IMG/VR virus record: IMGVR_UViG_3300021962_000061 | Location: 1 to 64,000 of that record | Length of the DNA: 64,000 nt | Reading direction: 5' to 3' (one strand) | From: a virus | In this document: piece after piece, positions 696 to 20,926 of the stretch | Numbering within the stretch: position 1 is the stretch's first letter | Layout: each line of letters begins with the position of its first letter | Position numbers and translations under genes: made by a program | The notes under the pieces: generated by a model | What the model was told of the DNA's origin: nothing | The model's database searches: none | The model's input: the letters and a program-made list of their open reading frames with translations, nothing else

Positions 696-735
696 TGTAT
701 TTTCTCCCAAATAATTTACGTAAATTGGTTATTAT

Positions 736-743: not shown

Positions 744-746
744 AAA

Positions 747-1406
747 TTAAAGTTTTGACAGGAAGTCAGTCCATGTCTTTAGCATAGCTTCTTCTAAAGC
801 ACGCTTATTTGGCTTGGCTGCTGCCTTCTCAATCTCTTCTTTATACAGTTCAATTTGTTGAGCCTTCAACAAACCATTATCCCATACCCACTCTACACCT
901 TCCATAATACCGTTAACAAATGCACCCGGTGCCGATGGATCAGCTACAATATCAGCAGCTGTTGCAAGAGTGAAGTCATCTTGGACTTCCATGATGCCAT
1001 TCATATCTTTTAATGAACCCATACCGCGTGATGATACACCTAGGCAGCCACCACCTTGAATAATGTTTCTTGCGATGTTGCCCATTGGTGTTTCTAGAAT
1101 CTTGGCGCGGCCAACAATGTTAGATCCATCTCTCTTTAGTTCCGTAATCATATGAGAAATACGGTCAAGATTGATTGAAGGGCCTTCTGGGTGGCCTAGC
1201 TCACCAAAAGCTCTCTTTGTATCTACGTATTCTTTGACGTAGCGATTGACTTCCTTCTCCATAACAGGCATAGGGTAGATACGGCCATTTCTATTCTTTA
1301 GATCAGCCTGCATGAAGACACCTTCAATATAGAAGTCCTTCTTGCCATCTTCCTTTTCTTCTGTTATTAGTTTTACTTCTTCAAGTACTTCGCAAATTAG
1401 TTTCAT
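747..1406 (-). CDS. 21: Prohead maturation protease gp21 (peptidase family S77/U9 type)
   Basis: 219 residues, close to T4 gp21 (212). It digests the scaffold and trims head proteins during capsid maturation. Visible family motifs are the GELGHPEGP block with the likely catalytic His72 and the GVSSRGMG block with the likely nucleophile Ser125 or Ser126. The ATG at 1406 is preceded by an AGGGG ribosome site. It sits between the small core genes and gp22, as in T4. Family assignment is firm; the exact nucleophile is inferred from conservation. Confidence 0.93.
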   Translation of the reverse strand: MKLICEVLEEVKLITEEKEDGKKDFYIEGVFMQADLKNRNGRIYPMPVMEKEVNRYVKEYVDTKRAFGELGHPEGPSINLDRISHMITELKRDGSNIVGRAKILETPMGNIARNIIQGGGCLGVSSRGMGSLKDMNGIMEVQDDFTLATAADIVADPSAPGAFVNGIMEGVEWVWDNGLLKAQQIELYKEEIEKAAAKPNKRALEEAMLKTWTDFLSKL

Positions 1407-1417
1407 TGCTGTGCCCC

Positions 1418-1696
1418 TTATCTATACGCTACCGAGACTGCTCTAACAACAGCTACACCACTTTGAATTTCTAAAGTGTGAGTAGGTTCTTTAATGAGAT
1501 AAACACTACTTTCATCTGAACCAGCAAAATTGAGTGTAAATGTTGCAACTGTTGTTGTACTATTACTTTTCTGTTCAATAATTACAAGATTACTCGAGTC
1601 AGTGTTTGTAACACGAACAATATTAGCATTACTAACAGTAGTTGGTGTACTGTTGATAGTGGTTTGTTCCCCTAAAAATTTTACGTAGTCTGGCAT
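1418..1696 (-). CDS. Small beta-rich protein of unknown function in head module
   Basis: 92 residues, rich in Thr, Ser and Val with alternating hydrophobic residues, suggesting a small all-beta domain. There is no signal peptide or metal motif. It lies in a tight minus-strand series (2 bases after the preceding gene, 11 before gp21), so it is expressed with the head genes. I do not recognise a T4 equivalent. A minor head or decoration protein is possible from position and fold type, but that is inference. Confidence 0.7.
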   Translation of the reverse strand: MPDYVKFLGEQTTINSTPTTVSNANIVRVTNTDSSNLVIIEQKSNSTTTVATFTLNFAGSDESSVYLIKEPTHTLEIQSGVAVVRAVSVAYR

Positions 1697-1698
1697 TT

Positions 1699-1980
1699 TT
1701 ATACACCCATGTGTGGTATTTTCATCTGTCTGATATGAGTCTTTAAAATAGGTCTCACATCAGCTTCTGGATACTTTTCTTTTGCACTTCTTAGTTCACT
1801 AGCAAGTTTAGGGTGGTTGCTATACTTACTAATTAATCTTTCTGCATGGTGAGCTGGAATCTTGTCACGCATCTCTGCTCTCAGCTCGCCAGCTGCCTTT
1901 CTAACTTTCATTGGATTCTTGCTATGCAAGGATCCTTGTAACTCACCTTCTTCATTAAGATAGTCTAAAAACTTTTTCAT
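1699..1980 (-). CDS. Small basic protein, possible prohead core component
   Basis: 93 residues, Lys/Arg/His-rich and mainly helical. Its ATG overlaps the stop of the upstream acidic core gene (ATGA, 1977-1980), so the two are probably translationally coupled. A basic partner beside a very acidic core protein would fit an internal head role, but I see no family motif. Function unassigned. Confidence 0.65.
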   Translation of the reverse strand: MKKFLDYLNEEGELQGSLHSKNPMKVRKAAGELRAEMRDKIPAHHAERLISKYSNHPKLASELRSAKEKYPEADVRPILKTHIRQMKIPHMGV

Positions 1981-2744
1981 GTATTGTGAATCTTTTGCTT
2001 TACCATTGACTGATGTCTATTTCTCATAGCCTCAGTTTCAGCACTAACTGTTGAAGGACGACCTTGAACACCAGCTTGCTTCTTTGCAGCACGTTCTTCT
2101 TTACGCTTTTTCATTTCAGCATCAAGTAAATTGCTTGCTATTTCTTTTTGCTTTCTTTTTCTTTCAAAAGAAGCAGCTGATAATTCGTAATCTTTCTCTT
2201 CACCCATCTGAGCCTTTTTGCCAACTAGCTTATAGCCCATCTTCTCATAATCTTTTTTGCCACGCTCAGCATCTTGAACAGAGAAGTGTGTGACTTTAAA
2301 TGGCTTCTTTGTTGGATGCTTATAATGCATCTCAACACCAACAACTTGCTTAGCTTCCTTCACTTCTTCTTTGTCGTCATCTTCATCTTCATCTTCATCT
2401 TCATCTTCATCTTCATCTTCATCTTCGTCTTCTTCGTCATCTTCCTTGCCCATCATTTCTGATAGCTTAGCAATTTTTGCATCTCTTGATTCTGGAAGAT
2501 GATAGGCAGCTTCTGACTCACCTGGTGCATCGTGGCCATGGTCATCCTTACCTGGATCACCTGGCTTCTTGATTGCAGCAACATTCTTTAGAATGTGATC
2601 GTATGGCGACTCTTGAGAGATTGAATCTTTACCCTGAAAGTCAAGAACCTTCATGCCATGCTTGGCCACAAATTCCTGCTCATCACCAGGAACAGGCTTT
2701 GCAACCTCTACTAGCTTCTTTAATGATTCGCGAATTGTGGCCAT
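1977..2744 (-). CDS. Acidic-repeat protein at the gp68 position, probable prohead core protein
   Basis: 255 residues from the ATG at 2744, which has an AGAGGA ribosome site and follows the stop of the upstream gene. An ATG-less extension to 2777 is possible but would overlap that gene. The N-terminal third is soluble and mixed. The centre carries a Glu-Asp alternating tract (about residues 115-140) encoded by a GAAGAT-type hexamer array. The C-terminal half is basic and helical. In T4 the slot between 67 and 21 holds gp68, a core protein, and acidic tracts are typical of phage core proteins. A protease-processed internal head protein is the best guess. Confidence 0.65.
   Translation of the reverse strand: MATIRESLKKLVEVAKPVPGDEQEFVAKHGMKVLDFQGKDSISQESPYDHILKNVAAIKKPGDPGKDDHGHDAPGESEAAYHLPESRDAKIAKLSEMMGKEDDEEDEDEDEDEDEDEDEDEDDDKEEVKEAKQVVGVEMHYKHPTKKPFKVTHFSVQDAERGKKDYEKMGYKLVGKKAQMGEEKDYELSAASFERKRKQKEIASNLLDAEMKKRKEERAAKKQAGVQGRPSTVSAETEAMRNRHQSMVKQKIHNT
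2381..2422. repeat. Hexanucleotide tandem repeat, seven perfect CTTCAT units
   Basis: Seven exact copies of CTTCAT with degenerate flanks encode the Asp/Glu run of the acidic core protein. Unit gain or loss would keep the frame and only change the length of the acidic tract. Confidence 0.9.
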
Positions 2745-2754
2745 GGTATTCCTC

Positions 2755-2970
2755 TTATTGTTCTGCTGGTACTTCAACTGGAGCTTCTACAGCAGGTACT
2801 TCTGCCTCTACTTCAGCTTGTGAGTTCATTACTGCATGAGCAACTTCTGGATACATTGCATCCAATCTTGCTGCTACCTTTGTATTGATTGCAGTTTCAA
2901 ACTTATCCAAGAATGCAGCTGCATCCTGGTTAATAACTGCACCAATCATATCTTTTACTTGTTCTGACAT
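2755..2970 (-). CDS. 67: Prohead core protein gp67-like
   Basis: 71 residues (T4 gp67 has 80). The N-terminal half (VKDMIGAVINQDAAAFLDKF) resembles the start of T4 gp67, a short helix followed by a 'D-x-x-x-F' segment. The C-terminal half is an acidic Glu/Val/Ala/Pro tail where T4 has its acidic tail. The gene lies directly downstream of the portal gene, the gp67 slot in T4. gp67 is an internal core protein cleaved by gp21. Recognition is by position, size and N-terminal similarity, so moderately sure. Confidence 0.65.
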   Translation of the reverse strand: MSEQVKDMIGAVINQDAAAFLDKFETAINTKVAARLDAMYPEVAHAVMNSQAEVEAEVPAVEAPVEVPAEQ

Positions 2971-2992
2971 ATAGTAACTCCAATATTCTAAT

Positions 2993-3000
2993 TATTTATC
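2993..3000 (-). promoter_or_regulatory. Variant late promoter GATAAATA upstream of the core genes
   Basis: The minus strand reads GATAAATA, one mismatch from TATAAATA, 23 bases upstream of the gp67-like ATG and in the short gap after the portal gene. Position and spacing match the other late promoters in the window. Confidence 0.5.
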
Positions 3001-3011
3001 AATCTGTTCAA

Positions 3012-4571
3012 TTAAACCTGTTCCGTATCAGCTTTACGTTGCTGCAGCTGGTCCTGTTGTTGTTGCTGCATCTCTTGTTCAACGCTTTGTTGATCTACTT
3101 GCTGTTGAAGGATCGGATCCTCTGCATTTTCTTCTTCCATTTGTTCAATATCATGGTCTGACAAACGTAGAACTTTCTTGCGGACAAAGTTACGAGAGTA
3201 GTAAACACCAATCATATCTTCCATATTTTTAACAGTGTTAACTCTATTTGTAATGATCTCAGCTTCCTTCAATTCAGTGAAGTAGCCATCTTGGACGTAG
3301 TCAAATTTAACCTTCGACATAATCTCAGGTAGTTCTTCTTGAGCTACAATGCCCTTTAGAACTAACTGCTTGCCAAGAGCATCCTTAAACAACACTGAGA
3401 ACTTCATTCTCAATCTGTCAACAAACTTTGAAAATCTCAATTCTTCTCTGGTAATTTCTGCTGATCTACCCAAGCTAAATCCTTGCTCTGAATTTAATCT
3501 TGTTACCGGAACATGCAATGACTGATATAGTCTCTTTTGGAAATATAGGACATCTTCCATCTGACCTAGGTTTGCACCAGGGGGTAGAGTTGTTATTTCT
3601 GTACCCTTACCACCTTCACGGCGTGGGATCCAGAAGTCTTCCGTCATTGTCATAAACTTTCTATCGTCTCTGACTTCACCAGTTGTAGCATCATACACTA
3701 ATCTATTTTTATGACGCTGCATCATGTCAGCAAGATATTGTTCTGCCTTCATCTTTGGAAGATTGCCAACATCAATATAGAATACTCTTCTTTCTGGTGC
3801 TCTTGTTAATCTATAGATTACAGAAGCATCTTCTAGCATACGTAGTTGGTTCATAGGCTTAATAGCCTTATGAAGATATGATAGAACGTATGAGTTATTT
3901 TCGTCTAGTAGACCTGACGATACTAGAACAATTGAATCCTTAGCAATTCTCAAGCCAGTTGTAGAAGATGTAACTTCCTTAGCTTGGAATCCCTTATCAT
4001 TGTACATATAGTATTCATTTTGTACAGTGATGGTCTTGCCTTTCTCTTTCTTAATTTCTCTAATCTTTCTAATCTTTCTAGGATCAATATAGCGTAGTTC
4101 TTTGATACCGTCTTGGGGATTAGTTGTATCAATAATAACATGGTAGTACAATCTACCATCAACATACCATCTTCTAATAATATCGAAACCAGATGACGAA
4201 AAGTCAAGTAGTTTTTTGACTTCATTAAATTCTTCAGATATTTTATCTTTCAGCTGCTTTGAAAATTCAAGATCGTCAAGATTGATATTGACCTGCTCTT
4301 GGTTTGAATCGTAGGAAATTATTTCACCTACAATTTCTTCTACAGCAGTTTCAATTTCTGGTTGGAGAGATAGTTGACGATATCTTGTGATTAGCTCAGC
4401 TTCAGTTCTTGCAGTACCTTCTAAATCAACATAGGTACCTACAACGCCGCCACCTGATACGATAACGGCACCATCGTCATTTACTGGGGGAACGAATGAA
4501 GGCTGAGTGACAGCCATCAGCTGTGGCTGCTCTTCTTCCTTTCGTTTAATTGTAAACCCAAATAATTCCAT
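3012..4571 (-). CDS. 20: Portal vertex protein gp20
   Basis: 519 residues (T4 gp20 has 524). It forms the dodecameric portal at one capsid vertex through which gp17 pumps DNA and to which the neck attaches. Family features include the N-terminal segment ending in ITRYRQLSLQPEIETAVEEI, the central RYIDPRKIRKIR strand, the RAPERRVFYIDVGNLP block and the GxNLGQMEDVLYFQKRLYQSL region that lines the channel. The C-terminus is a Gln-rich tail. It lies downstream of tail tube gp19, as in T4. Confidence 0.96.
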   Translation of the reverse strand: MELFGFTIKRKEEEQPQLMAVTQPSFVPPVNDDGAVIVSGGGVVGTYVDLEGTARTEAELITRYRQLSLQPEIETAVEEIVGEIISYDSNQEQVNINLDDLEFSKQLKDKISEEFNEVKKLLDFSSSGFDIIRRWYVDGRLYYHVIIDTTNPQDGIKELRYIDPRKIRKIREIKKEKGKTITVQNEYYMYNDKGFQAKEVTSSTTGLRIAKDSIVLVSSGLLDENNSYVLSYLHKAIKPMNQLRMLEDASVIYRLTRAPERRVFYIDVGNLPKMKAEQYLADMMQRHKNRLVYDATTGEVRDDRKFMTMTEDFWIPRREGGKGTEITTLPPGANLGQMEDVLYFQKRLYQSLHVPVTRLNSEQGFSLGRSAEITREELRFSKFVDRLRMKFSVLFKDALGKQLVLKGIVAQEELPEIMSKVKFDYVQDGYFTELKEAEIITNRVNTVKNMEDMIGVYYSRNFVRKKVLRLSDHDIEQMEEENAEDPILQQQVDQQSVEQEMQQQQQDQLQQRKADTEQV

Positions 4572-5191: not shown

Positions 5192-7492
5192 TTAAACTGA
5201 ACCAACAACTTCGCTAAACTCAACACCAGTTCTAACTGCTACAAAGTTTAGTTGGATGAAGTTGATTGAGCGAGCTGGTTTGATGAAGATATCACCAACA
5301 AACTGGTTAGCATCGACAACTTCTGGTGTATTGTTTGTTGTGTCACAAACAACCTTGAAGTCGTAGATACCACGGCGGCCTTGGATCTCACGTAGGTAAG
5401 GTTCAACCAAGTTACGGAACTGAGCTCTTGTGAACTCATCGTTAAACTCGAACAAAGTGAACTTGGCAGCAGTGGCGATTGCTTTTTCAAGAACGATAAA
5501 CAATCTACGTACGTTGATTCTATCAAATGCTGATGGTTTAGCAAGCAATGTCTTGTCGCCAAACAATACAGTACCTTGGCCTGGGAATGTTGTCACTGGG
5601 TTGACACCTGCCTTGTACAACGTATCTCTGTCAGCCTTATCTGGATTATAAGCTAGCTTAACAATATTTTTGATTTGACCTCTATTGAATCCAGCTGGTG
5701 AATACCACGGATCTCTGATAGTGTCAGTTCTTACACACAAGCCAGCTGTATCACCATTTAGTGGTACGTAGCGGTAGACGTCGTTATAACGATCGTACAT
5801 GTACTTGTAGCCAGAATCTATTACACCGTAAGATGATGATCTTAGTGCATTTCTAAATTGTGTAATGTTACCAGCTTGTGAACCAGCCGTAACACCGACT
5901 ACATCACCACGGTCTGGTGATGCAAACACGACACAATCCTTACGAACTTCTGCAATATTGTCAACTAGGTAGTTAGCTAGTTGCTCACCATATGTGCCGC
6001 CTCTTGCCTTACCAGTTAGAATCAATGAAATGTCAACTTCTTCTGCAGAAGCAAACTTGTCATATGCTGTAGCAAGGTAGCTGACAGCGATTGTGCTTTC
6101 GCCAGCACCATCTGCACCGCCTATGAGTGACTTAGTTGTTGGCTTTGAGTTGGTGTCAGAGGATGACATATTGTTGGCTGTATTGGATGAGGCATTACCA
6201 TTGTCAGCAAACCACCACAACCATTCTGAGCCGTTATTAATCACATCCTTATAATAAATTGAAGCACCGTCTCTCTTGCAGTCTGTTGCTCTTGATAGTC
6301 TTTCCCATCTTTCAAGAATTGTGTTCTTAATACCTGTGACTAGACCATCTTCGTCAGCAACTACAACATGAAGCTCGTCTGACGAACCACCACGCTCTGA
6401 TACGTATACAGATGTGCCTGGAGCACCATCTGTTACATCAAAGTATTCCCAGTAACGGGAAACAGCATTAGCAACAGTGCTATTAGTTGTTAAGGACACT
6501 GCGTTTGAACCAGTGTATAGAGATTCAAATGATAAGGTAGCTTGAACAACGCCATTTGAAACACCTGAAGGTGAACCAATTGCAGTAAGCTTTAGATACT
6601 GTGAGTTTACTTTCAACTTATCGCCGACTGTTAGTAAGCCTAGTTGTGTGTTCAATTCAGTATTTGCTAGTGTATTTGCAGCAGCTGTTGAACCAAGTGT
6701 AATTGAGAATGTTGCACTTGAGCCAGCTGAGGTGTTACTACCACCAGAAGTTGAGTTGGCAACAAAAATTTGGATAACTGATGTATTTGGGAACTGACCA
6801 GCTCCAACAACTGTTACTGCTGTAATACCACCAGTTGAGTTAGTTGTTACTGTGCAGTTGCCTGTATTAACAACACCATTGGATAGAACGACTACGTCTG
6901 TATTGTCGTAACCTGAACCACCAGCTGTTACTGTAATTGCTGTTACGTTTTGTGATGCTTGAGTTGCTGTCAATGTACCTGTATTTGCACCAATGCTAAT
7001 TGCTAGTGTTAGTGTGTTGTTGGCATTGTCAACAGAGGACATTACATTTGATGACCAAGCATTTGAGCTGTCGCAAATGGAAACCTTTAGAGAATTACCT
7101 AGTGCACCTGGATACTTGGCTCGGTAAATTGCACCTTGTGAAGAACCAGTTGTTTTTGTTAGGTAGTCATCCAAGTTCTTAACCTGGAGATTTGCTACGG
7201 CCGATGTGTTGGCATATGCATTATATGCATTTGCATCTGCAGCACGTGAAACATATAGCTGATTGCCATATGCCAAAAAGGAAGATGCTGTCATAAAGGT
7301 TTCAAAATTTTCGTCATTTGGTAGACCAAATCTGTCTACTAGTTCTAATTCGTTTGAAACATTTACTCTATCGTTTACTGGACCCCAACGGAAAACACCT
7401 GCAATACCACCTTCTGTGGAGGATACGGCAGGGACCACTGTTGTCAAGTCGATTTCGCTTACATTTACGCCTGGGCTAACTTGAAATGCCAT
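5192..7492 (-). CDS. 18: Contractile tail sheath protein gp18, with an inserted beta domain
   Basis: 766 residues from the ATG at 7492, chosen because GGAG lies 8-9 bases upstream; it gives the canonical N-terminus MAFQVSPGVNVSEIDLT. gp18 forms the sheath that contracts to drive the tube through the envelope. The C-terminal third is the conserved sheath core (KLAYNPDKADRDTLYKAGVNPVTTFPGQG; RRLFIVLEKAI; final FVAVRTGVEFSEVVG). It is longer than T4 gp18 (659). The extra length includes a Gly/Thr/Asn-rich segment (codons around 6715-6950) with a GGSGYDNTD motif that recurs in other virion proteins here; this is probably a surface-exposed insertion. Confidence 0.96.
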   Translation of the reverse strand: MAFQVSPGVNVSEIDLTTVVPAVSSTEGGIAGVFRWGPVNDRVNVSNELELVDRFGLPNDENFETFMTASSFLAYGNQLYVSRAADANAYNAYANTSAVANLQVKNLDDYLTKTTGSSQGAIYRAKYPGALGNSLKVSICDSSNAWSSNVMSSVDNANNTLTLAISIGANTGTLTATQASQNVTAITVTAGGSGYDNTDVVVLSNGVVNTGNCTVTTNSTGGITAVTVVGAGQFPNTSVIQIFVANSTSGGSNTSAGSSATFSITLGSTAAANTLANTELNTQLGLLTVGDKLKVNSQYLKLTAIGSPSGVSNGVVQATLSFESLYTGSNAVSLTTNSTVANAVSRYWEYFDVTDGAPGTSVYVSERGGSSDELHVVVADEDGLVTGIKNTILERWERLSRATDCKRDGASIYYKDVINNGSEWLWWFADNGNASSNTANNMSSSDTNSKPTTKSLIGGADGAGESTIAVSYLATAYDKFASAEEVDISLILTGKARGGTYGEQLANYLVDNIAEVRKDCVVFASPDRGDVVGVTAGSQAGNITQFRNALRSSSYGVIDSGYKYMYDRYNDVYRYVPLNGDTAGLCVRTDTIRDPWYSPAGFNRGQIKNIVKLAYNPDKADRDTLYKAGVNPVTTFPGQGTVLFGDKTLLAKPSAFDRINVRRLFIVLEKAIATAAKFTLFEFNDEFTRAQFRNLVEPYLREIQGRRGIYDFKVVCDTTNNTPEVVDANQFVGDIFIKPARSINFIQLNFVAVRTGVEFSEVVGSV

Positions 7493-7538
7493 CGTGATTC
7501 TCCTCGTAGACAAATCTATTGAATAAAGCTACTGAAAT

Positions 7539-7546
7539 TATTTATA
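7539..7546 (-). promoter_or_regulatory. T4-type late promoter upstream of gp18
   Basis: Exact TATAAATA on the minus strand in the gap between the gp17 stop and the gp18 ATG (7492), giving a leader of about 40 bases with a GGAG site. It would drive strong sheath, tube and portal expression. Confidence 0.8.
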
Positions 7547-7565
7547 AATTCCCTAGGTTCATGTT

Positions 7566-9624
<2,059 letters not shown>

Positions 9625-9637
9625 TGTTTCTTTATGT

Positions 9638-10531
9638 TTAAGTATCTGGGTCATTAGTTGGATCATCCACTGGGAAATCAGGGTTTGTGTTTGTAGTTAC
9701 AATATAGGCCCAGTTGTCATTTGCTGCTATGTTGGCAGCTGGGATTGTTATAGCTGGATCCGTTGTTGGATTACCATTTGCATCAAGACCCGGACGGACT
9801 TGAGTTGTTGTGAAGAATAAAGTATTAGATAGAGTTGCGTTTGAGGAAATTGTATTGGACTCAGCCTCAATATTTGCACTAAAGCCATCAACAACAAACA
9901 ACCTCGTATTAGCTGTATTGATAATGTTTTTATCTTTAACAGGACCAAACATGTAACCTTTCATTGTAAAATTTAGTGTATGGATTATTGTCCTTCTGCT
10001 CTCATATGCATCTTCATACGTGTCTTCTGTTGTTACTGTATTTAAAACAACTGGAACATCCATACGTAGATCTAAATCATCTACAAGCTTGATTGTGTTT
10101 GTCCATTCAGGTGTGAAATATGGTAAAATCTGTTCAAGTAACTGAGTACCATCTTCAGCGTTGAGAACGTATATTGAAAGTTCAAAATCTATATCCCACG
10201 GTACAGGATTGTATACTCTAGCATTGACTTGATTATCGCTAGGGACTTTAATTGTACCAATAGTTGATAATTTTCTAGTTGGGTCATAGTTGTACCCAGA
10301 GATTTGAAAACTCATTCTGGGTAAACTAATAGCATCTGGTTTTGTTAGATTGGGGTCCTGCTGAATCCTGGATAAAAACTTGGCTCTTGGGCCATAGGCA
10401 ATTGGTACCTTAATACGTTTAACAATAGTTCCTGCGTTGTTTCTTCTCCACACAACCATATCGTTAAACATGGTACCAAATACCACCACATATCTTCTTA
10501 TGGTCTCGTGATAATATTCAGATCCAAACAT
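9638..10531 (-). CDS. 15: Tail sheath stabiliser / completion protein gp15
   Basis: 297 residues (T4 gp15 has 272). gp15 forms the hexameric ring capping the completed tail and contacts gp13/gp14. The N-terminal FGSEYYHETIRRYVVVFGTMF and the segment with VPIAYGPRAKFLSRIQQDP are hallmarks of the family, as is RMSFQISGYNYDPTRKLS. The C-terminal about 90 residues are Asn/Asp/Pro-rich and low complexity, beyond the T4 length. It lies between gp14 and gp16, as in T4. Confidence 0.95.
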   Translation of the reverse strand: MFGSEYYHETIRRYVVVFGTMFNDMVVWRRNNAGTIVKRIKVPIAYGPRAKFLSRIQQDPNLTKPDAISLPRMSFQISGYNYDPTRKLSTIGTIKVPSDNQVNARVYNPVPWDIDFELSIYVLNAEDGTQLLEQILPYFTPEWTNTIKLVDDLDLRMDVPVVLNTVTTEDTYEDAYESRRTIIHTLNFTMKGYMFGPVKDKNIINTANTRLFVVDGFSANIEAESNTISSNATLSNTLFFTTTQVRPGLDANGNPTTDPAITIPAANIAANDNWAYIVTTNTNPDFPVDDPTNDPDT

Positions 10532-10533
10532 TA

Positions 10534-10698
10534 TTAGTCACCACCGCCGTTGCCACCGCCTGAACTACCACTCTTTCCGGGTGGTAGAGATTTAATTGTA
10601 CCGTCAGCCATTCTAATTTTTACATTAGGAACTTTGATAAGTTTACCAGCGGCGTTTCTAACAAAAAGTTCTTGTACAAGTTGTTTGAATGTTTTCAT
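10534..10698 (-). CDS. Small 54-residue protein with Gly-rich tail between gp14 and gp15
   Basis: An ATG at 10698 overlaps the gp14 stop (TAATG), which suggests translational coupling, and the TAA lies 3 bases before the gp15 start. The product begins MKTFKQLVQELFVRN, continues with short basic beta-like segments (KLIKVPNVKIRMADGT), and ends SGSSGGGNGGGD. Coding character and exact fit between the neighbours support a real gene. I know no T4 equivalent; a minor neck or head-tail protein is possible by location only. Confidence 0.65.
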   Translation of the reverse strand: MKTFKQLVQELFVRNAAGKLIKVPNVKIRMADGTIKSLPPGKSGSSGGGNGGGD

Positions 10699-11366
10699 TA
10701 GTATGTGTTAGCCTCTGAGAATGGATTGATTTCTGTAAAGTCAAGAATATCATCACCACGTGTCTCAAACAATTCATTTTGTGCTTGCTTATCTATTGCA
10801 GAAACATTGAATGATGTAACTGCTTGAGTACTATTTGCTAGCTTAAAGCTTAGAGCATTATATGTGTCATCAATCATAGGTATGCTTGTTGCAAACGTCT
10901 CTTGATTGAATTCAAATAGCTCACAAACAACATCGTATGTTTGCAGCGCACCCATTTGATAGAAAATAGCTTCGTGCTCAACAAATCTAATTACATAGCC
11001 TTTCATGGTGAGAGGGAAGAAAATCATATCTCCTTCTCTTGGTCTTGTTATACCAACAACTTCACTTGTAAATGTTCTTCTTGAAAATGTAAATGTAATT
11101 CTGTCTCTAATTTGTAAACCAAATTTAGATAAGAAGTCTCCCTCACCCTCAAACCCTTCGACATTTTTAATGTAGGCTTCTACCAGATATGCATTATTGA
11201 ATGAGGCTAGTTCATCTTCTTTGAATACAGGTTCTTCATTGTCAATAGTTCTTGGGCAATACCAAACCTCATGCCCATAAATTTTAATTGACTCTATTAC
11301 TAGATCTTCAATTAAAATTTGTTCTTGGCTGTTATCAAAATTATTAAAATAAAAATTAGTTGCCAC
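10698..11366 (-). CDS. 14: Neck protein gp14 (GTG start)
   Basis: 222 residues (T4 gp14 has 256). With gp13 it forms the neck that joins the filled head to the tail. The N-terminus ATNFYFNNF, the segment EQILIEDLVIESIKIYGHEVWYCPRT and the strand GDMIFFPLTMKGYVIRFVEHEAIFYQMG are typical of the family. The start is GTG (complement of 11364-11366), preceded by GGTGGGA; no in-frame ATG fits. It begins 2 bases after the gp13 stop. Confidence 0.95.
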   Translation of the reverse strand: MATNFYFNNFDNSQEQILIEDLVIESIKIYGHEVWYCPRTIDNEEPVFKEDELASFNNAYLVEAYIKNVEGFEGEGDFLSKFGLQIRDRITFTFSRRTFTSEVVGITRPREGDMIFFPLTMKGYVIRFVEHEAIFYQMGALQTYDVVCELFEFNQETFATSIPMIDDTYNALSFKLANSTQAVTSFNVSAIDKQAQNELFETRGDDILDFTEINPFSEANTY

Positions 11367-11367
11367 T

Positions 11368-12108
11368 TTATCCCACCATGTGATATGCAGGCAAGGTATA
11401 AGATGTCATCATTTCCTGCTCTAGTGATTCAATTTCGGCTTTTGCATCGTCCATAATCTTCTCACCGTTGAATTGGACACCACCAGGAAGAACCATACCT
11501 GTGAACTTAGTTAGGTTTGTCCCCCACTGATATTTAATCTGGGCAGAAGTATATAGAGCTAACCAACGATCACCCCAAACATCACTATATGTTGCTGGGT
11601 CTACTACTTGATAGGCTTCCACAACCAAATATTCATTAAGCACTGCAAGATCCCAGTCCATATCAATATGTAATCTATTTTTGTGTCTATTATAGCGAAT
11701 TGGCTTTTGGCCAACCAGAATTTCTTCTAAAAACTGAATATGCTGCATTGCCATAACATATGGAACCATTGACTGAGTGGTCAAAGTGTAGAGGTCATTT
11801 AGAGCAATCTGATAGCGAATGTTGAACAAGTTCATCGTATTTAAACTCTGTCCAACAGGAAAAATCTTTACAGCACCAATGATATTTTCAGGTAAGGTGA
11901 TATATTTGTTTGCTTTATCTGTTGACGTAATTTGGTGCTTATAGTATACTTTCTCTGCCCCATCAAAGTGATAGTCCCAAAAATATCTTAAAGACTCGTC
12001 AATACGGTCCTCCACTTGGTCGTCATCAACGTTGATTTCTATAACTGGCTTACCTAATTTACGAAGGCAATACTCTTTAAATTCAGATCTGGTTGTTGGG
12101 ACTGCCAT
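11368..12108 (-). CDS. 13: Neck protein gp13
   Basis: 246 residues (T4 gp13 has 309). Recognised by the N-terminus TTRSEFKEYCLRKLGKPVIEINVDDDQVEDRIDESLRYFWDYH and by the motif DRWLALYTSAQIKYQWGTNLTKFTGM near the C-terminus. It binds the portal side of the neck with gp14. A late promoter precedes it at 12139-12146, so it likely heads the neck-terminase-sheath transcript. Confidence 0.95.
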   Translation of the reverse strand: MAVPTTRSEFKEYCLRKLGKPVIEINVDDDQVEDRIDESLRYFWDYHFDGAEKVYYKHQITSTDKANKYITLPENIIGAVKIFPVGQSLNTMNLFNIRYQIALNDLYTLTTQSMVPYVMAMQHIQFLEEILVGQKPIRYNRHKNRLHIDMDWDLAVLNEYLVVEAYQVVDPATYSDVWGDRWLALYTSAQIKYQWGTNLTKFTGMVLPGGVQFNGEKIMDDAKAEIESLEQEMMTSYTLPAYHMVG

Positions 12109-12138: not shown

Positions 12139-12146
12139 TATTTATA
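12139..12146 (-). promoter_or_regulatory. T4-type late promoter upstream of gp13
   Basis: Exact TATAAATA on the minus strand, 30 bases upstream of the gp13 ATG and overlapping the stop codon of the upstream gene (12142-12144). Confidence 0.75.
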
Positions 12147-13032
12147 GATCAATTACATCCATGCATTCAAGTAGTCCACTTGTCACCCTTTCTGTCTCAT
12201 TTCCATTGGCAATTATTCTATTAGCGGTGGTTTCGGGCAGCCATTTACCAACATTTATAGTAATATCTTTATATTTGTGATACGGATATCCAAATATTTC
12301 TTCAACTTTCTGTTTATTTGGAGCAGCAATTACCTTATTCCAGAAGTTTAGAATATATCCATTTTGGGCCCTGAGGTTATGGGCAATAGTTTGTCTTGCT
12401 GATATTGCGGCACCAATAAGAACGTCACTTTTATGATTTAAGTTTCTATCAAGGTACGCTAGTTGTTTTTTCTTAATTGCATCGCTTAGAAACTGGCCAT
12501 CATTACTGTAGTTTAAATTAGTAATTTTTGTCATGTCAACTACAAAAAAGTTGGTGTCTACAGACATATCACGTGGAGGTAAACCAATCATGCCATACAT
12601 TGCTAAATGTCTATCGTACTGATATACTCTTGATAAACATAGGCCTATTTTATTACAGTTTAGGTTAGACTTTGCAAATTGCGCATAGTCTTTAACAGCA
12701 ATTGCTCCAGCCATTATGCATGAAGCAACACCAGAATATCCTGTCAAGCTAATGGCATTAAGGGTTGATAAAATTGTATTTCTAATATCAAAATCTTCTA
12801 AAACAAATACTTTGTAATTTAAATTGTTTGCTTTTACAAATTCTGATACAACCTTATCATAATCTTTAAATGCAGCATACTCTTTGTTGGTTTTGTTTTC
12901 TTCATACATCGTGTTATATTTGGACACTTGGCTACCTGGAATGATGATTGTTACATCTTCAATTCCAAGATCTCCAAGAGACTTAATTGTCAAAAAACAA
13001 CCATGATGTTGTGCAATAACAAAAGTTTTCAT
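12142..13032 (-). CDS. Unknown protein, possibly a GT-A-like glycosyltransferase
   Basis: 296 residues, soluble, with no signal peptide. It opens with a beta-strand and loop (MKTFVIAQHHGCFLTIKSLG), then VTIIIPGSQ. A middle segment, DTNFFVVDMTKITNLNYSNDGQFLSDAI, is loosely like the 'N-x-x-x-x-D...D-Q-x-x-L' region of GT8-type enzymes. This is weak pattern similarity and no clean DxD motif is seen. Its ATG overlaps the stop of the next possible glycosyltransferase gene (ATGA), so the pair is coupled. It separates gp13 from the fibre genes, a slot that in T4 holds fibritin. Function not established. Confidence 0.5.
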   Translation of the reverse strand: MKTFVIAQHHGCFLTIKSLGDLGIEDVTIIIPGSQVSKYNTMYEENKTNKEYAAFKDYDKVVSEFVKANNLNYKVFVLEDFDIRNTILSTLNAISLTGYSGVASCIMAGAIAVKDYAQFAKSNLNCNKIGLCLSRVYQYDRHLAMYGMIGLPPRDMSVDTNFFVVDMTKITNLNYSNDGQFLSDAIKKKQLAYLDRNLNHKSDVLIGAAISARQTIAHNLRAQNGYILNFWNKVIAAPNKQKVEEIFGYPYHKYKDITINVGKWLPETTANRIIANGNETERVTSGLLECMDVIDL

Positions 13033-14012
13033 GTTATTACACCTTCTTTCTGAAATACTTCTTTGTTAGCTTCATCACCAACTTCACCTGGTTTATACTG
13101 CACTTTAACATGCTTATATTTTTTTGTGTTTTCAAAAAATCTGGCAATACATTCTGCCTTATTATTATGGTGAACAGTGATTAGACCAGACTCAGGGTGT
13201 GACATTAAAGCAGCAAATTTATTATATAATGTGTCCTTGACACCACATTTATCTAAAGATGTGTAGATTGCTTCAAATGTTTTACCAACACTAACTTTTT
13301 TATTATCAACTAATCCAATACCTTTACCTAGTAGTACAGCTGCACAACCTGTTTCTGATGATAACGTAAAGTATACTTTTTTAGATTTCTTAAAGATTGG
13401 ATACATTGAAGCATCGTTCCTAACAATCCTCTCTCTGTATTTTTGTTCTAGAATTGTTTGCCACACTTTGGCCGTGATAGGGTGTATCTTTACCCACGCT
13501 CCATTATTGTATAATTCATCAACTTTTTCCCAATCAACAGCATCCTTGTTAATTAAATTAGTCCCTGGTAGTAATACTAATTCATTAACATTAGCGTATT
13601 GATTATCAAGGTCATCATCTAGAATATACTTGTCTGTTAAATTATCTTTAAGTGCTTGAGCAATTCTAAATCCATCTTCCGTTGGACCCTTTCTTATTTG
13701 TTCAACCATAATGTCTACTGTAATGCGTGTATTGCATGCAGCAATGTATAGCACTTGAGTGAGTAGGTCGGTGTACTTATAACCAGTTATAGTATCTTTA
13801 GGACTACCGTAACTGATATCGTACTCAATTTTTAACCCGTTGGGATTTTTAGGAATTAGATCAGCTATTTCTGATAATCTATCATTAGCTGGGGAACGCA
13901 GCATATTTCCTGATTTCATGAAGTGGGTAACAGTGTCGTTTACCCATTCGTTAGAGGAAAGATTAAAGAATTTTTTCTTCTTTGTTTTTGGATCAACAAC
14001 TTCATCCACCAT
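13029..14012 (-). CDS. Unknown protein, possibly a GT-B / capsule-transferase-like enzyme
   Basis: 327 residues. The C-terminal half reads WVKIHPITAKVW, then a basic segment, then VYFTLSSETGCAAVLLGKGIGLVD. This order (His-Pro, then Ser-Ser-x-x-G-x-x-A-x-x-x-G-K) recalls the nucleotide-sugar binding half of GT-B enzymes such as CDP-glycerol or capsule glycosyltransferases. The N-terminal half is not recognised. It overlaps the next gene by 4 bases and is followed upstream by a small coiled-coil gene and a Thr-rich repeat protein. Modification of a fibre glycan is conceivable but is inference. Confidence 0.45.
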   Translation of the reverse strand: MVDEVVDPKTKKKKFFNLSSNEWVNDTVTHFMKSGNMLRSPANDRLSEIADLIPKNPNGLKIEYDISYGSPKDTITGYKYTDLLTQVLYIAACNTRITVDIMVEQIRKGPTEDGFRIAQALKDNLTDKYILDDDLDNQYANVNELVLLPGTNLINKDAVDWEKVDELYNNGAWVKIHPITAKVWQTILEQKYRERIVRNDASMYPIFKKSKKVYFTLSSETGCAAVLLGKGIGLVDNKKVSVGKTFEAIYTSLDKCGVKDTLYNKFAALMSHPESGLITVHHNNKAECIARFFENTKKYKHVKVQYKPGEVGDEANKEVFQKEGVIT

Positions 14013-14016
14013 AATA

Positions 14017-14166
14017 TTAACCCTTTTTCACATTTTCTAATTCATGCACTTTCTTTTTTAAGGTCTTGATCTCTTGATGCAAGTCCATTATCTTTTGCAA
14101 CATAATCTCAACAAAAGACTCTAACTTTCTATCAATCAATTCATTACTGACACGCTCTTCACTCAT
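14017..14166 (-). CDS. Small 49-residue coiled-coil protein
   Basis: ATG at 14166 with a GAGGTG ribosome site, TAA at 14017-14019, then 4 bases to the next start. The product is almost wholly one charged helix, with heptad-like spacing of Leu, Ile and Val through IMDLHQEIKTLKKKVHELEN. Two other genes here (25520-25747 and 28935-29150) encode similar short coiled coils beside fibre genes. A fibre-trimer clamp or attachment protein is possible; function unknown. Confidence 0.7.
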   Translation of the reverse strand: MSEERVSNELIDRKLESFVEIMLQKIMDLHQEIKTLKKKVHELENVKKG

Positions 14167-14199
14167 TGTTATTCACCTCAAGGTAATAATGATATAGTA

Positions 14200-14207
14200 T
14201 ATTTATA
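14200..14207 (-). promoter_or_regulatory. T4-type late promoter before the coiled-coil / GT-like operon
   Basis: Exact TATAAATA on the minus strand, 34 bases upstream of the small coiled-coil ATG at 14166, in the gap after the Thr-rich gene stop at 14212. Confidence 0.75.
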
Positions 14208-14211
14208 TTGA

Positions 14212-16200
14212 TTAATTAAACGTAGTTACGATAGTGGTATCGAATGTTGTTGTTCTAGAAGTATTGTACGATGTGTTGCGGTTAGTGTCATAAGTTGTGT
14301 TGTATGCAGAGCTAGTTGATTTGCTTGTGTTTATCACTGTGTCTCTAGTTGTATCATATGTCGTTGTTGTGTCAAATGTGCTAACGGTATCAAACACTGT
14401 TTGAATTACTGTATCAAATGTTGATGTTGTAGATTTTGATGTAGACTTGCTCGTGTCAATTGTTGTGTCATAAGCTGTTGTTGTATTGAATACAGTTGTT
14501 GTATTATAGTTAGTGTCAATAGTAGTATCAAATGTTGATGTTGTAGATTTTGATGTAGACTTGGTTGTTGCAATTGCAGTATCAAATGTTGTAGTTGTAT
14601 TAAATACTGTTGTTGTGTCGAATACAGTTGATCTTGTAGTTTCAAATGTGGTTGTTGTGTTAAATGTTGTTACAATTGTTGTATCAAATGTTGATGTTGT
14701 AGATTTTGATGTAGACTTGGTTGTTGCATATGCAGTTTCATAAGCTGTTGTTGTATTAAATACTGTTGTTGTGTCAAATGCAGTTGATCTTGTAGTTTCA
14801 AATGTGGTTGTTGTGGACTTACTTGTACCAATAACGGTATCAAAGGTTGTTGATTTTGTTGTAGCAAATGCTGTGTTAAAAAAGAAGGAAGTATCTTTAA
14901 CAGTATTGTTCAATACTGTTGTTCCATAAGTTGTCGTTGTATTAAATGATTCCGCAGTTTGTTTAGATGTTGCAGTTGCTCTACTTGTAGCTTTAGTTGT
15001 CACGCCCGCAGCACCGGTGTTAAAGTAGAATGTTGTATTGAAGTAGAATGTAGTACCAAAATAGAATGTTGTACCACCACCGGCTGATGTGTTGTAATAG
15101 AAAGACGTATCTCTAACAGTGTTATAAGCAACATATGGACTAAAGAAGAATACTGTAACGTAGTATGTTAAACCATCATATCGTGTGCCAAAATAGAATG
15201 TAGTGCCACCACCCGCTGATGTTCCACCTCCTGCAGCAGTGCCAGCGACCCGTGTTGTTCCAAAATAGAATGTTGTGCCATATGTGGTGTTATAAATTGT
15301 AGTTGTGTTAAAAGTTGTAACTGTTTGTTTAGATGTTGCAGTTGCTTTAGATGTATTAAAGAAGAATGTTGTCTGGAATGTTGTTAACAAAGCTGTGGTT
15401 GTAGCCCTTGTTGTATCATACGTTGTATTTCTTGATGTGGCATACCCAGTTTCATAAGATGTTGTTGTAGCACCTGATGTGTTGTAAGTGGTATTTCTAC
15501 TAGTAGCTGTAGCTTTTGATGTGGCGGTAACCCCTGATGTTGCAATTACTGTATCATATGTTGTATTATAAGTTGTGGTTGTAGATTTAGAAGTTGCATA
15601 TGTAGTGTTTCTACTTGTGGCTGTAGCTAAAGTAGTGTTGTAAGTTGTATTTCTACTTGTAGCAGTTGCATTAGATGTGCTTGTGGTTCTAGACGTAGCG
15701 TATGCTGTATCATACGTTGTGTCATATGTTGTAGTTGTAGATACAGTTGTCAAATACGATGTGAGAACAACGGATGCTGTTGTTCTTGATGTGCTTGTCG
15801 TCTTTGTTGTTGTGTAAGAGGTGCCATACGTTGTGTCATATGTTGTAGTTGTAGATACAGTTGTGGCATAGGCTGTGTTTCTACTTGTTGAGGTAGTTCT
15901 AGTTGTGGCTGTTGTTTTAGTTGTATTATATGTTGTAGCGTAGCTTGTTTCAAAGGTAGTTGTTGTTGCAATTGTTGTGCCACGTGACGTATTGAATGTT
16001 GTAACGATAGTTGTATCAAATGTAGTTGTACGTGATGTTTCGTATGTGGTATCTTTTTCAGCAACATAGACTAATCGTAGAGTACCATTATCATTAACGT
16101 AAACTCTATTAATCTTACGCAAAATACCGCCATCATTAACTTTAATGATCTTAGCGTCTCGTAGTGTTCCGTTATCGTTGACAAATATTTTGCGCGGCAT
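14212..16200 (-). CDS. Thr-rich tetrapeptide-repeat virion protein (662 residues)
   Basis: About half of the residues are Thr or Ser. After an N-terminal head of three short repeats around VNDNGTLR (residues 1-48), nearly the whole protein is tetrapeptides of the form phi-x-T-T/S, where phi is F, Y, I, V, R or K (for example FDTT-IVTT-FNTS-RGTT), with occasional two-residue Thr/Ser insertions. The mid-section has Phe-rich variants (TTFYFGTT, FFFNTS) and Gly-rich breaks (AGGGTSAGGGTT). There are no Cys and no membrane segments. The regular spacing suggests a beta-solenoid or other extended fibrous fold. It shares modules with the 1699-residue protein at 38783-43882. It is probably a tail or baseplate fibre; function not established. 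Confidence 0.75.
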   Translation of the reverse strand: MPRKIFVNDNGTLRDAKIIKVNDGGILRKINRVYVNDNGTLRLVYVAEKDTTYETSRTTTFDTTIVTTFNTSRGTTIATTTTFETSYATTYNTTKTTATTRTTSTSRNTAYATTVSTTTTYDTTYGTSYTTTKTTSTSRTTASVVLTSYLTTVSTTTTYDTTYDTAYATSRTTSTSNATATSRNTTYNTTLATATSRNTTYATSKSTTTTYNTTYDTVIATSGVTATSKATATSRNTTYNTSGATTTSYETGYATSRNTTYDTTRATTTALLTTFQTTFFFNTSKATATSKQTVTTFNTTTIYNTTYGTTFYFGTTRVAGTAAGGGTSAGGGTTFYFGTRYDGLTYYVTVFFFSPYVAYNTVRDTSFYYNTSAGGGTTFYFGTTFYFNTTFYFNTGAAGVTTKATSRATATSKQTAESFNTTTTYGTTVLNNTVKDTSFFFNTAFATTKSTTFDTVIGTSKSTTTTFETTRSTAFDTTTVFNTTTAYETAYATTKSTSKSTTSTFDTTIVTTFNTTTTFETTRSTVFDTTTVFNTTTTFDTAIATTKSTSKSTTSTFDTTIDTNYNTTTVFNTTTAYDTTIDTSKSTSKSTTSTFDTVIQTVFDTVSTFDTTTTYDTTRDTVINTSKSTSSAYNTTYDTNRNTSYNTSRTTTFDTTIVTTFN
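14230..16050. repeat. Imperfect 12-bp tandem array encoding phi-x-T-T units
   Basis: The DNA is an imperfect tandem array with a 12-base period and 6-base insertions. The + strand is G/T-rich (units like GTTGTATCAAAT). Synonymous changes keep the coded pattern, so selection appears to act on the protein repeat. Confidence 0.8.
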
Positions 16201-18286: not shown

Positions 18287-20926
18287 TTATTCTAATGTAA
18301 ACACACCACCATCCATTTTTGTTACACCACCAGGAGGAGGCGGTGGTGGCGGTGGAGGAGGTGGAGGCGGTGGAGGCGGTGGTGGGGCAGACGCAGCACT
18401 ATTCAGCGTAATTGTTGCTGTACTTGTATAAACAGATTGTTCTGTGTTATCAGAGGTGACTAAACATCTATAGCCACTACCATCCAAAGATTGAGAATCA
18501 ATTAATACATTATATGTTGATGACGTTGCACCCGGTATTTGGATCCATGGTAATGTTGCATTCTCGTAATATTCCCACTGATATTTTAGTGGCCCTAAAT
18601 CACCAGCTACAAGTGCTGCCTCAACTTTAAATAGCCAGTTTGTAAAGTTTAGTGGACCAACATAACTTGATGGTTGTGTTGTTATTGTAGGAGGACCTAA
18701 AACAACAGATGGATCAGAGTTGATGGTAATTGTTGCAGTATTTGTATAAGTATACAAACCAGTAGATAGAGATGTTACTCTACATCTATATCCATATCCA
18801 TCATATGCAGCTGTATTTAATTCAATTGACAGTGTTGGTGTAATCTCATTGGCTAACGTGATCCATGGATTGGCAATATCTGTGTAATACTCCCACTGAT
18901 ATGCTAGTGGACCTGTATCCCCTGATGCTAACGCTGCTTCCGTTCTTAAATACCAAATTGACGAGTCTGCTGGCCCTGTATAACCTTGTGGGTTTAGAGC
19001 GATGGATGGTGGCTGCAGTACAACTTGAGGGCTTGATAGAGGAAACGAAATAGAAACATTATTCTGGCCTGGTATATCATACAATTCAATTGTAATATAT
19101 TTTTCGCCAAATGCCCCATCATCAGATGTTGCAATCTGTTCGGTCACAAATGAGTAAGCAAGCGACTGTCCACCATACAAATCAATTACACCAACATTTT
19201 TAGTTGTCAATGTTCCTGTTAGTGCTATGTTTATAAACTGTTGCTCAATGCCAGTTATTCTGTACTTAATGTTACTGCCAACTGGGTAACCCCAAGCTCT
19301 GATACCAAGAATGAATGATTGACCTTCTTGTATACCAACTGTTGGTGATAAAGGATCCCCAGCCACATTGGTTGCTGAACAAGTAACAGAAACTATTCCA
19401 GTAGTATCAATAATTTTTACGCTTGATGTATATGTGCTAGATACAATCAGCGTCATTGTTTCTTCTGCTTCTATACTTGCATCAATAGTTGGTGTCACAA
19501 CTAGACTTGCTAAATTGTTATTGATTGTTAATGTTCCTGATGTAGCCACATCTATGTCAGCTGCTGTTACACCAGTAATTGTATAATTTACTGTGGTACC
19601 ATCTGGGACATTTGTAGTCTTTAGTGTAAAAGTTACTGGTTGTCCTTCACTCACGCTTGTAGCGCTAGATGTTAAATTAAAGGTTTGTGATGAATCAGTG
19701 ATTAGTACGGATGTGGATGCTACACCAGGTATTTTTAAGATAAATTGTCTTGAATCAATAATGTCGTTGGCTTTAACGGTATAGGTCTTTACTGCTGTGC
19801 CGTCATTACCAACTGTGAAGAAGTCTCTTGTTGGTGGCGAACTCACTAACTGATCGGACGTATAATTCTCAATTTCAAAATTAACTCTTGTACCAGCACT
19901 AATATTTTGTGTCGTTAAAGTTACTGTAAACTGTGTTCCTTCTTGTACAGTTGTTACTGAAGGTGTTAAAACATATGTACCACTTGTTACAGCAGTTGAT
20001 ATATCTTTAACAATTACATTAGCAGATACAGTTGGGGATACATCAGTTAGGGTGAGAACCATATTTTCCTCACCTTCTGTTGTTACGTCAGCAACTATCT
20101 GAATATTTGCTGTAGCAAACCCATATTGTGTTTGTTGGTCAAATCCATATATTGTTGATCCGTCGAGACCTAGAATAGGCTCTATAACAGCCACTGTAGA
20201 AATATTAAATGTACCAGTTACAGCACCTCCAGAAATATCACTACCATCAACACCAGTTATTTTATATGGTATTGATGTGCCACTTGGAACACCAGTTGTC
20301 ACGAGAGTGAATGTAACAGTGTCACCCTCATTAACAACACTTTTATCAGGCAGAAGTGAGTATGTGGCTAACTGCTTTACTGGCGGCCTTGTTGTATTTG
20401 ATTGAATGGAAGCAACACAATCAATATCTACAGCTTTACCTGTTTCCCCAGATGTGGCTCTTATGGTGAAGGAACTAGTACCAACTTGTGTTGGCGTTCC
20501 TGAAAACACAACATAGGCATATGTTCTGGAAGTCAGTATTGGGTCACTAACAACACTTGTACCATCTACATCAACTGATACACCAGCTGGCAACGAGCCA
20601 CTCACAACTGATACTGTAAATGCATTAGTTGTATTAGCACCCCACTCTTCAATTAGCAAAGCATTATATCTTAGTGCAACATTTGATTGCCAAGTTGGTA
20701 GTGTTCCATTTTGTGCTACAAGATCACCAGATAATAATATCTTTGGTGTTACACTAAGAGAATACGATTGGGTATTTGAAGATCCGTCAACATCAGCTGC
20801 AGTCACAGAGAAAGAATAAGACCCTACTTTTGTAGGATACCCTCTTAAATACATCAATCTATTATCAGACACTAATGAAAGGCCCGGTGGTAAATTTCCG
20901 CTTGTAACTGTGTAATTAATAGCCAT
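18287..20926 (-). CDS. Large adhesin with Ig, Calx-beta-like and poly-proline segments (879 residues)
   Basis: Domain order as read: an N-terminal putative Ig (He_PIG-like) domain, with YTVTSGNLPPGLSL and a TKVGSYSFSVTA strand; about four repeats resembling Calx-beta (each with 'V-x-E-G-x-x-V/F-T-x-x-L', then 'D-I/G...SGT', then 'E-E/G-x-E-x-M-x-L'); and two copies of an I-set-like Ig domain (QWEYY...YDGYGYRCRVTS...YTNTATITI). Then comes a run of 18 prolines and a final VTKMDGGVFTLE. There is no signal peptide. It is probably a virion surface adhesin or fibre binding host glycans or proteins. A homologous Ig domain occurs in the 1505-residue neighbour. Confidence 0.75.
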   Translation of the reverse strand: MAINYTVTSGNLPPGLSLVSDNRLMYLRGYPTKVGSYSFSVTAADVDGSSNTQSYSLSVTPKILLSGDLVAQNGTLPTWQSNVALRYNALLIEEWGANTTNAFTVSVVSGSLPAGVSVDVDGTSVVSDPILTSRTYAYVVFSGTPTQVGTSSFTIRATSGETGKAVDIDCVASIQSNTTRPPVKQLATYSLLPDKSVVNEGDTVTFTLVTTGVPSGTSIPYKITGVDGSDISGGAVTGTFNISTVAVIEPILGLDGSTIYGFDQQTQYGFATANIQIVADVTTEGEENMVLTLTDVSPTVSANVIVKDISTAVTSGTYVLTPSVTTVQEGTQFTVTLTTQNISAGTRVNFEIENYTSDQLVSSPPTRDFFTVGNDGTAVKTYTVKANDIIDSRQFILKIPGVASTSVLITDSSQTFNLTSSATSVSEGQPVTFTLKTTNVPDGTTVNYTITGVTAADIDVATSGTLTINNNLASLVVTPTIDASIEAEETMTLIVSSTYTSSVKIIDTTGIVSVTCSATNVAGDPLSPTVGIQEGQSFILGIRAWGYPVGSNIKYRITGIEQQFINIALTGTLTTKNVGVIDLYGGQSLAYSFVTEQIATSDDGAFGEKYITIELYDIPGQNNVSISFPLSSPQVVLQPPSIALNPQGYTGPADSSIWYLRTEAALASGDTGPLAYQWEYYTDIANPWITLANEITPTLSIELNTAAYDGYGYRCRVTSLSTGLYTYTNTATITINSDPSVVLGPPTITTQPSSYVGPLNFTNWLFKVEAALVAGDLGPLKYQWEYYENATLPWIQIPGATSSTYNVLIDSQSLDGSGYRCLVTSDNTEQSVYTSTATITLNSAASAPPPPPPPPPPPPPPPPPPGGVTKMDGGVFTLE
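18330..18383. repeat. Poly-proline coding tract (18 consecutive codons)
   Basis: Eighteen Pro codons using CCA, CCG and CCT, so not a simple trinucleotide run. Such tracts stall ribosomes unless EF-P acts, and form a stiff PPII rod between the adhesin body and its last 15 residues. Confidence 0.9.

Follow-up and report, generated by a model that had tools for sequence, protein, structure and literature searches.

A probable phage-encoded virion O-glycosylation cassette centred on a Thr/Ser tetrad-repeat protein in a T4-like myovirus

The DNA analysed here (the window) comprises 64,000 bases of the 89,597-base IMG/VR virus record IMGVR_UViG_3300021962_000061 and, according to the PHROG-level annotation of its neck and tail genes, belongs to a T4-like myovirus. 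Beside the neck genes, a gene for a Thr/Ser-rich protein, presumably a fibre, is followed by two genes, hereafter gene B and gene A, whose products are predicted to have glycosyltransferase (GT) folds. Judged from sequence, this cassette probably serves the phage-encoded O-glycosylation of the Thr/Ser protein in the virion. The idea of an O-glycosylated fibre was put forward in an earlier annotation of the same DNA (the original prediction). It gains support, still as a prediction, from the GT folds in the two genes named there, from the linkage of gene B to repeat proteins of the same kind in unrelated phages, and from the extra glycosyltransferases found in some cassettes.

The presumed acceptor is an open reading frame (ORF) of 662 amino acids with 244 Thr and 60 Ser (46%), in agreement with the Thr/Ser-rich fibre described earlier. 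Three VNDxGxLR-type units at its N-terminus are followed by T-[TS]-x-x repeats, and past residue 45 the protein is a ladder of four-residue units (tetrads) such as DTTY, ETSR, TTTF and NTSR; Thr and Ser make up 302 of the 617 residues from 46 to 662 (49%). The period of four, of the form [x]-T-[TS]-[FYRKIV], gives a lag-4 autocorrelation of Thr of 0.248, whereas none of 1000 shuffles exceeds 0.169. The ORF matched no Pfam or PHROG family. It is presumed to be a virion fibre from its position among structural genes and from its N-terminal motifs. In another cassette, the N-terminus of the tetrad protein is similar (E about 0.005) to stretches annotated "tail fiber protein" in phages of Agrobacterium and Rhizobium; the best matches of the window fibre's own N-terminus reach only E=0.4. 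The second tetrad protein of the window, with 800 Thr and Ser in 1699 residues (47%), is encoded 25 kb away among baseplate genes.

The linkage of gene B to tetrad proteins was assessed by three DNA scans that used the Thr/Ser repeat pattern only and no gene B information. Loci were sorted by a tetrad filter that was written after examples had been seen and in which gene B plays no part. The first repeat scan gave nine loci, six of which pass the filter and two of these with gene B (L051, L052). The scan for T-[TS]-x-x repeated six times and the aromatic-tetrad scan gave at least 120 loci each (119 were read in the latter), and all counts from these two refer to the matches listed. In the six-times scan, six loci pass the filter, three of them with gene B, and gene B was found in 0 of the 114 loci failing it. 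In the aromatic-tetrad scan, 71 of 119 loci pass and 48 of these 71 carry gene B, as does one of the 48 loci that fail. Gene B lies on the strand of the tetrad gene in all 48 cases, and the gap between them is -7 to 500 bp in 37. Where at least 1.5 kb of sequence is present downstream, gene B occurs in 43 of 47 loci; set against 0/114, this yields a Fisher probability of 7e-35, a value that compares different scans and loci that are not independent. Among the borderline cases, L233 entered the count of tetrad loci lacking gene B and is probably a shadow reading, L244 has gene B and no ORF passing the filter, and L171 is a simple repeat that passed. A whole-contig search of eight tetrad loci lacking a nearby gene B recovered it in L069, L225 and L218. 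The 73 gene B proteins fall into 40 clusters at 80% identity, which range from T7-like podoviruses to KVP40, and 25 of the 40 were found through the repeat alone. The pairing of gene B with tetrad proteins is far beyond chance.

Loci found by homology to gene B gave the same picture. Of 13 loci with IMG/VR relatives at 57-74% identity, 11 encode a Thr/Ser repeat protein immediately upstream, and the other two lack upstream sequence. Ten marine-type gene B loci were found at about 30% identity; all eight inspected have a Thr/Ser repeat protein. Gene B also matched 45 named phage records, of which ten were inspected, and clear tetrads stand beside it in eight: BL199, Lullwater, Quill_5.2, KVP40, D484, F86, D479 and QD01. 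The first three are T7-like podoviruses; BL199 and Lullwater infect Caulobacter and KVP40 infects Vibrio. The Thr/Ser protein is HOS13_gp41 in Lullwater and gp042 in BL199, and gene B of Lullwater is HOS13_gp42. In phage DLP6 no tetrad protein adjoins gene B, and tetrads are carried by the baseplate wedge protein AAY80_265. Homologous baseplate proteins have no tetrads in eight of eight phages lacking gene B, nor in the gene B-positive Cr30, a comparison that is weakly consistent with the linkage. No relative turned up in bacterial genomes scanned with the closer alignment. A tetrad pattern search of 16 named genomes gave 0/16, though eight of them carry gene B and several have known tetrads; its control having failed, this result was not used.

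Gene B belongs to phrog_26179 (E=4.5e-74), within a phrog_26179/30602 family. Its AlphaFold2 (AF2) model has a pLDDT of 80.3 and a pTM of 0.79. Foldseek placed it near KpsC (E=1.5e-4), and structural comparison by VIA matched WbbB, KpsC, KrkA and a polysialyltransferase at Z 8.7-9.2, rows less than one Z unit apart counting as tied. Individual values were Z 9.2 for 8csc (root-mean-square deviation (rmsd) 4.2, 204 aligned residues), 9.0 over 218 for 6mgb and 9.2 over 131 for the GT38 polysialyltransferase 5wcn. Two sequence profiles reach KpsC only at E=0.03-0.26, so the assignment of a GT-B fold rests on the model together with weak sequence hits. No Pfam family matched the window protein. Its relatives show sub-threshold Pfam similarity to GT52 (E=5e-4), Capsule_synth (E=0.0016) and polysialyltransferase (E=0.019); KVP40.0256 scores 19.8 bits against PF07922, under the cut-off of 26.1, and the L084 protein 15.0 bits against PF07388, under the cut-off of 23.3. 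One further copy (L016:7983-8883) appears split over two frames, by a frameshift or an assembly error.

Conservation was followed across 39 representatives of full length, the majority of which share 15-33% identity with gene B of the window. Nine residues are invariant in 39/39: D65, K128, Y129, N152, K175, H177, P178, E220 and G276. Among them is a K-x-HP motif (K175-x-H177-P178), which aligns to the HP of KpsC. The retaining beta-Kdo (3-deoxy-D-manno-octulosonic acid) transferases KpsC (GT107), WbbB (GT99) and KrkA (GT140), the best structural matches, share with gene B the GT-B fold and the HP motif that binds cytidine monophosphate (CMP). The inverting CMP-sialyltransferases (GT38 5wcn, GT52) likewise have an HP motif with a catalytic His, whereas their D/E-D/E-G motif was not identified in gene B and the Pfam scores of its relatives stay below cut-off. 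For the inverting polysialyltransferase, PMC5517516 describes an HP motif with the catalytic His, Ser/Thr contacts to the phosphate and a base in the N-terminal domain. H177 as the acid and D65 as the N-terminal-domain base would fit this pattern. Use of a CMP-sugar donor by gene B is a serious possibility, which we rate slightly on the doubtful side.

Gene A yielded a firmer model (mean pLDDT 92.3, pTM 0.91, from an alignment of 13 sequences), and by VIA it has a GT-A fold of the GT8 type. Its best match is the Skp1 galactosyltransferase 6mw5 (Z 15.7, rmsd 3.8, 211 aligned), followed by WbbM (Z 15.1), GlyE (14.8), glycogenin (14.8, rmsd 3.4, 208 aligned) and LgtC (14.5). Across the GT8/GT24 enzymes glycogenin, LgtC, GlyE, UGGT and Skp1 galactosyltransferase, the fold agrees at Z 13-15.7, with roughly 200-230 residues aligned. 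Comparison with viral models gave 100 matches at E 0.001 or better, many of them to named glycosyltransferases. By sequence, gene A has no family hit in PHROG, Pfam or NCBIfam; a sequence search against solved structures returned nothing where the fold search succeeded, and a first viral scan with gene A as query was also empty. The original prediction had noted weak GT-A-like and GT-B-like patterns in two coupled genes of unknown function, and these are exactly the genes whose models have GT-A and GT-B folds. It had named predicted structures devoid of a GT fold as the outcome that would speak against it; the structure search of 12142-13032 and 13029-14012 found such a fold in each.

The slot after gene B varies between cassettes. 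Gene A-type proteins occupy it in the window, DLP6, L014, L192, L025 and L026. A type of 232-244 amino acids is a homologue of gene A by hhalign (98.2% probability, E 5e-14); a marine type of 326 amino acids is in turn linked to this shorter type (96.4%). The L178 cassette, of which L084 is a near-twin, has GT4 and GT25, and that of L223 has GT2 and two GT8 with DxD. In Vibrio phages the slot holds a 210-amino-acid family without known kin, and in the Caulobacter podoviruses gene B stands alone and is followed by a holin gene. The minimal set is thus the tetrad protein with gene B, which suggests that the acceptor is modified by gene B before gene A acts. L123 lacks gene B; there (244-3989, + strand) two tetrad proteins stand immediately behind a GlcNAc transferase of GT60 type (Pfam E=1.6e-68), possibly an independent solution.

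The window also contains, between the fibre gene and gene B, an ORF of 49 amino acids with a GAGGTG ribosome site and a stop four bases before gene B, which was absent from the earlier account. Of 40 loci examined, 26 have a coiled-coil-like ORF of 48-82 amino acids in the space separating gene B from the tetrad gene. In 18 further gene B loci, an ORF of this kind with 79-95 amino acids follows gene B in six and precedes it in two (DLP6, L283). Coiled-coil likeness was judged by eye, heptads being counted for the window ORF alone. Three of the four small-ORF families are related by hhalign (70-97%), and the Vibrio family is unrelated. Our guess is that the small protein is an adaptor or a chaperone.

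Other genes were seen near gene B. The L223 cassette (5479-10981, - strand, on a 175-kb phage contig) has two short tetrad fibres, gene B, the GT2 and both GT8 genes, and a radical-SAM-like gene recognised by eye. The gene after gene B in L162 (1686-2513, - strand) is presumably sulfotransferase-like, as judged from its motifs, with no Pfam or NCBIfam hit. QueC-like PP-loop genes occur near gene B in KVP40-type Vibrio phages (L039:8104-8790, +) and also in L204 (452-1216, -), where one separates gene B from the tetrad protein; they might modify a sugar or a base. In L265 (2123-3097, +) a succinyl-CoA-ligase-like gene stands between the tetrad protein and gene B.

The three ORFs of the original prediction were all found on the minus strand where it had placed them (Table 1). 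Transcription runs on one strand from the fibre gene through the 49-amino-acid ORF, gene B and gene A to the neck gene. The proposed coupling of the two GT genes holds, as they overlap by four bases (13029-13032). For their coupling to the fibre gene, the upstream position of the fibre stands and direct coupling does not, because the 49-amino-acid ORF and a copy of TATAAATA intervene. This motif, which we take to be of the T4 late-promoter type, occurs ten times in the window against 7.0 expected, a number reached in 17 of 100 shuffles, and nine of the ten copies are on the coding strand. Since the excess over the window is not significant, a late unit is only suggested. A neighbouring 879-amino-acid structural protein (18287-20926, - strand) has Ig-like domains and a long proline run near its C-terminus.

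Table 1. Cassette genes, motif copies and neighbouring structural genes of the window
Feature	Coordinates	Strand	Basis
Tail sheath stabiliser	9638-10531		PHROG-level annotation
Head closure	10698-11366		PHROG-level annotation
Head-tail adaptor (gp13-like neck protein)	11368-12108		PHROG-level annotation
TATAAATA, T4-late-promoter type (assumed), at gene A end, ahead of neck gene gp13; suggestive only	12139-12146	-	Motif scan
Gene A, 296 aa, GT-A fold like GT8/GT24, lacking DxD; likely second, extending enzyme	12142-13032	-	AF2 model, VIA
Gene B, 327 aa, predicted GT-B-fold glycosyltransferase; likely core enzyme	13029-14012	-	AF2 model, Foldseek/VIA, PHROG
Small coiled-coil-like ORF, 49 aa; candidate adaptor/chaperone	14017-14166	-	ORF and GAGGTG site
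TATAAATA, T4-late-promoter type (assumed), ahead of the coil-B-A unit; suggestive only	14200-14207	-	Motif scan
Thr/Ser tetrad-repeat protein, 662 aa; presumed fibre and glycan acceptor	14212-16200	-	ORF, composition, period four
Second Thr/Ser tetrad protein, 1699 aa; possible second acceptor	38783-43882	-	Baseplate region

Several observations weigh against glycosylation by this cassette. The pairing is not universal: L025 and L026 carry gene B with no adjacent tetrad protein, the gene B neighbour in Cr30 is a weak Thr-rich protein of 116 amino acids without clear period, one 997-amino-acid tetrad protein of cyanophage type occurs on four contigs of the first repeat scan with no gene B, and the whole contigs (19-41 kb) of the tetrad loci L176, L243, L273, L123 and L199 contain no gene B. 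The linkage counts are also not independent, as the loci of one phage recur. The second tetrad protein of the window resembles those of L243 and L273, which lie on short contigs, so these two may belong to genomes that have gene B elsewhere. The gene B model is weak over residues 16-42, a segment barely covered by the fold searches. Both enzymes, moreover, depart from their nearest relatives at catalytic positions. KpsC-type enzymes, whose acceptors are glycans, use a QXXXD nucleophile according to PMC10148158 and PMC12887879. QXXXD is not conserved among the 39 gene B representatives, which is why gene B is not classed with these enzymes; a Q...D within 75 residues before HP occurs in 9/39, at scattered positions, whereas [GA]-x-N, with the invariant Asn, is present in 39/39 in a strand that was matched by eye to the QXXXD strand. 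In gene A, and at the site in all 12 family members checked, the DxD metal site of the GT8/GT24 transferases is absent. At this position the gene A strand ends in MAGAI, with a small residue, an invariant Gly and a small residue; the L026 relative has a D.D close to, not at, the site. Because of the missing DxD, the chances that gene A is an active extender are put at about even.

These departures would also fit genes A and B having GT folds without transfer activity and serving the Thr/Ser protein as chaperones or assembly factors instead. In many phages a dedicated chaperone is encoded beside the fibre gene, and a chaperone could equally be the constant neighbour of the repeat and share its unit with a coiled-coil-like protein. 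The nine residues, including K-x-HP and E220, that are invariant in gene B at mostly 15-33% identity nevertheless look like an active site, and some cassettes have recognisable glycosyltransferases in the neighbouring slot, namely GT4 with GT25 or GT2 with two GT8. We consider a purely chaperone role improbable. T4 glucosyltransferases modify phage DNA, and the pair could act in the same fashion. DNA glycosylation is known from T4-like phages (PMC6024577), and the QueC-like gene of KVP40-type phages lies two genes downstream of gene B; yet gene B is placed behind the Thr/Ser gene in T7-like phages and others as well, and the window pair is set inside a structural block between fibre and neck genes, which makes DNA modification very improbable. 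Alteration of host capsule or lipopolysaccharide (LPS) glycans during infection, as a superinfection block or a receptor change, would suit the nearest folds of gene B, which are capsule or LPS Kdo or sialic transferases, but is just as remote, for it does not account for so close a linkage with a single kind of repeat protein, and the late-promoter-like site and the position among structural genes suggest expression at assembly.

Under virion O-glycosylation, the fibre, with its long series of T-[TS]-x-x units, would be produced late in infection, and the coiled-coil protein may bring gene B to the fibre or keep the fibre open. Gene B would place the first or core sugar on the Thr/Ser hydroxyls, perhaps from a CMP-activated sugar, H177 serving as the acid and D65 as the base, and gene A would add the second sugar. 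The glycan coat might in turn make the fibre stiffer, shield it or modulate adsorption. A bolder proposal is that the gene B family reads T-[TS]-x-x via a coiled-coil adaptor and links a CMP-activated acidic sugar (Kdo- or sialic-like) directly to Thr/Ser, with lineage-specific second enzymes, in a widespread modular system of tailed phages; in this full form we regard it as rather unlikely. CMP-Kdo would be a donor at hand in any LPS-making Gram-negative host. To our knowledge, a direct Kdo-protein link would be new chemistry.

Two known systems invite comparison. Streptococcal serine-rich repeat adhesins are Ser/Thr-rich surface proteins whose own initiating and extending transferases adjoin them, an arrangement like that of the cassette; unlike it, they are cellular, depend on accessory Sec export, are initiated by another GT-B group and are not known to have a period of four. 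In mycobacteriophages, virion glycans are carried by the C-termini of the subunits of capsid and tail tube (Freeman 2023, cited by PMC12619734). Phage virion proteins are acceptors there, as is proposed for the cassette. The proteins concerned differ: the cassette is predicted to glycosylate a tetrad repeat within a fibre or baseplate protein, with a dedicated GT-B family and a small coiled-coil partner. As expected of virion glycosylation, a GT fold is encoded beside the gene of a presumed virion protein. The open-licence literature searched yielded no published description of the tetrad acceptor, the gene B enzyme family or the module.

Virion glycosylation is documented for few phages. The pairing recurs in many unrelated phages, so these viruses probably sugar-coat their own tail parts. 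If this prediction is true, virion glycosylation would be common and could be read from the genome as gene B behind a Thr/Ser tetrad protein; the question also becomes testable in cultured phages such as Lullwater and BL199 of Caulobacter and KVP40 of Vibrio. It would also give a function to the unknown families phrog_26179 and phrog_30602, and perhaps to phrog_30374 and phrog_30897, would provide glycosylating enzymes for a very simple repeat, and would explain a strange class of phage repeat proteins.

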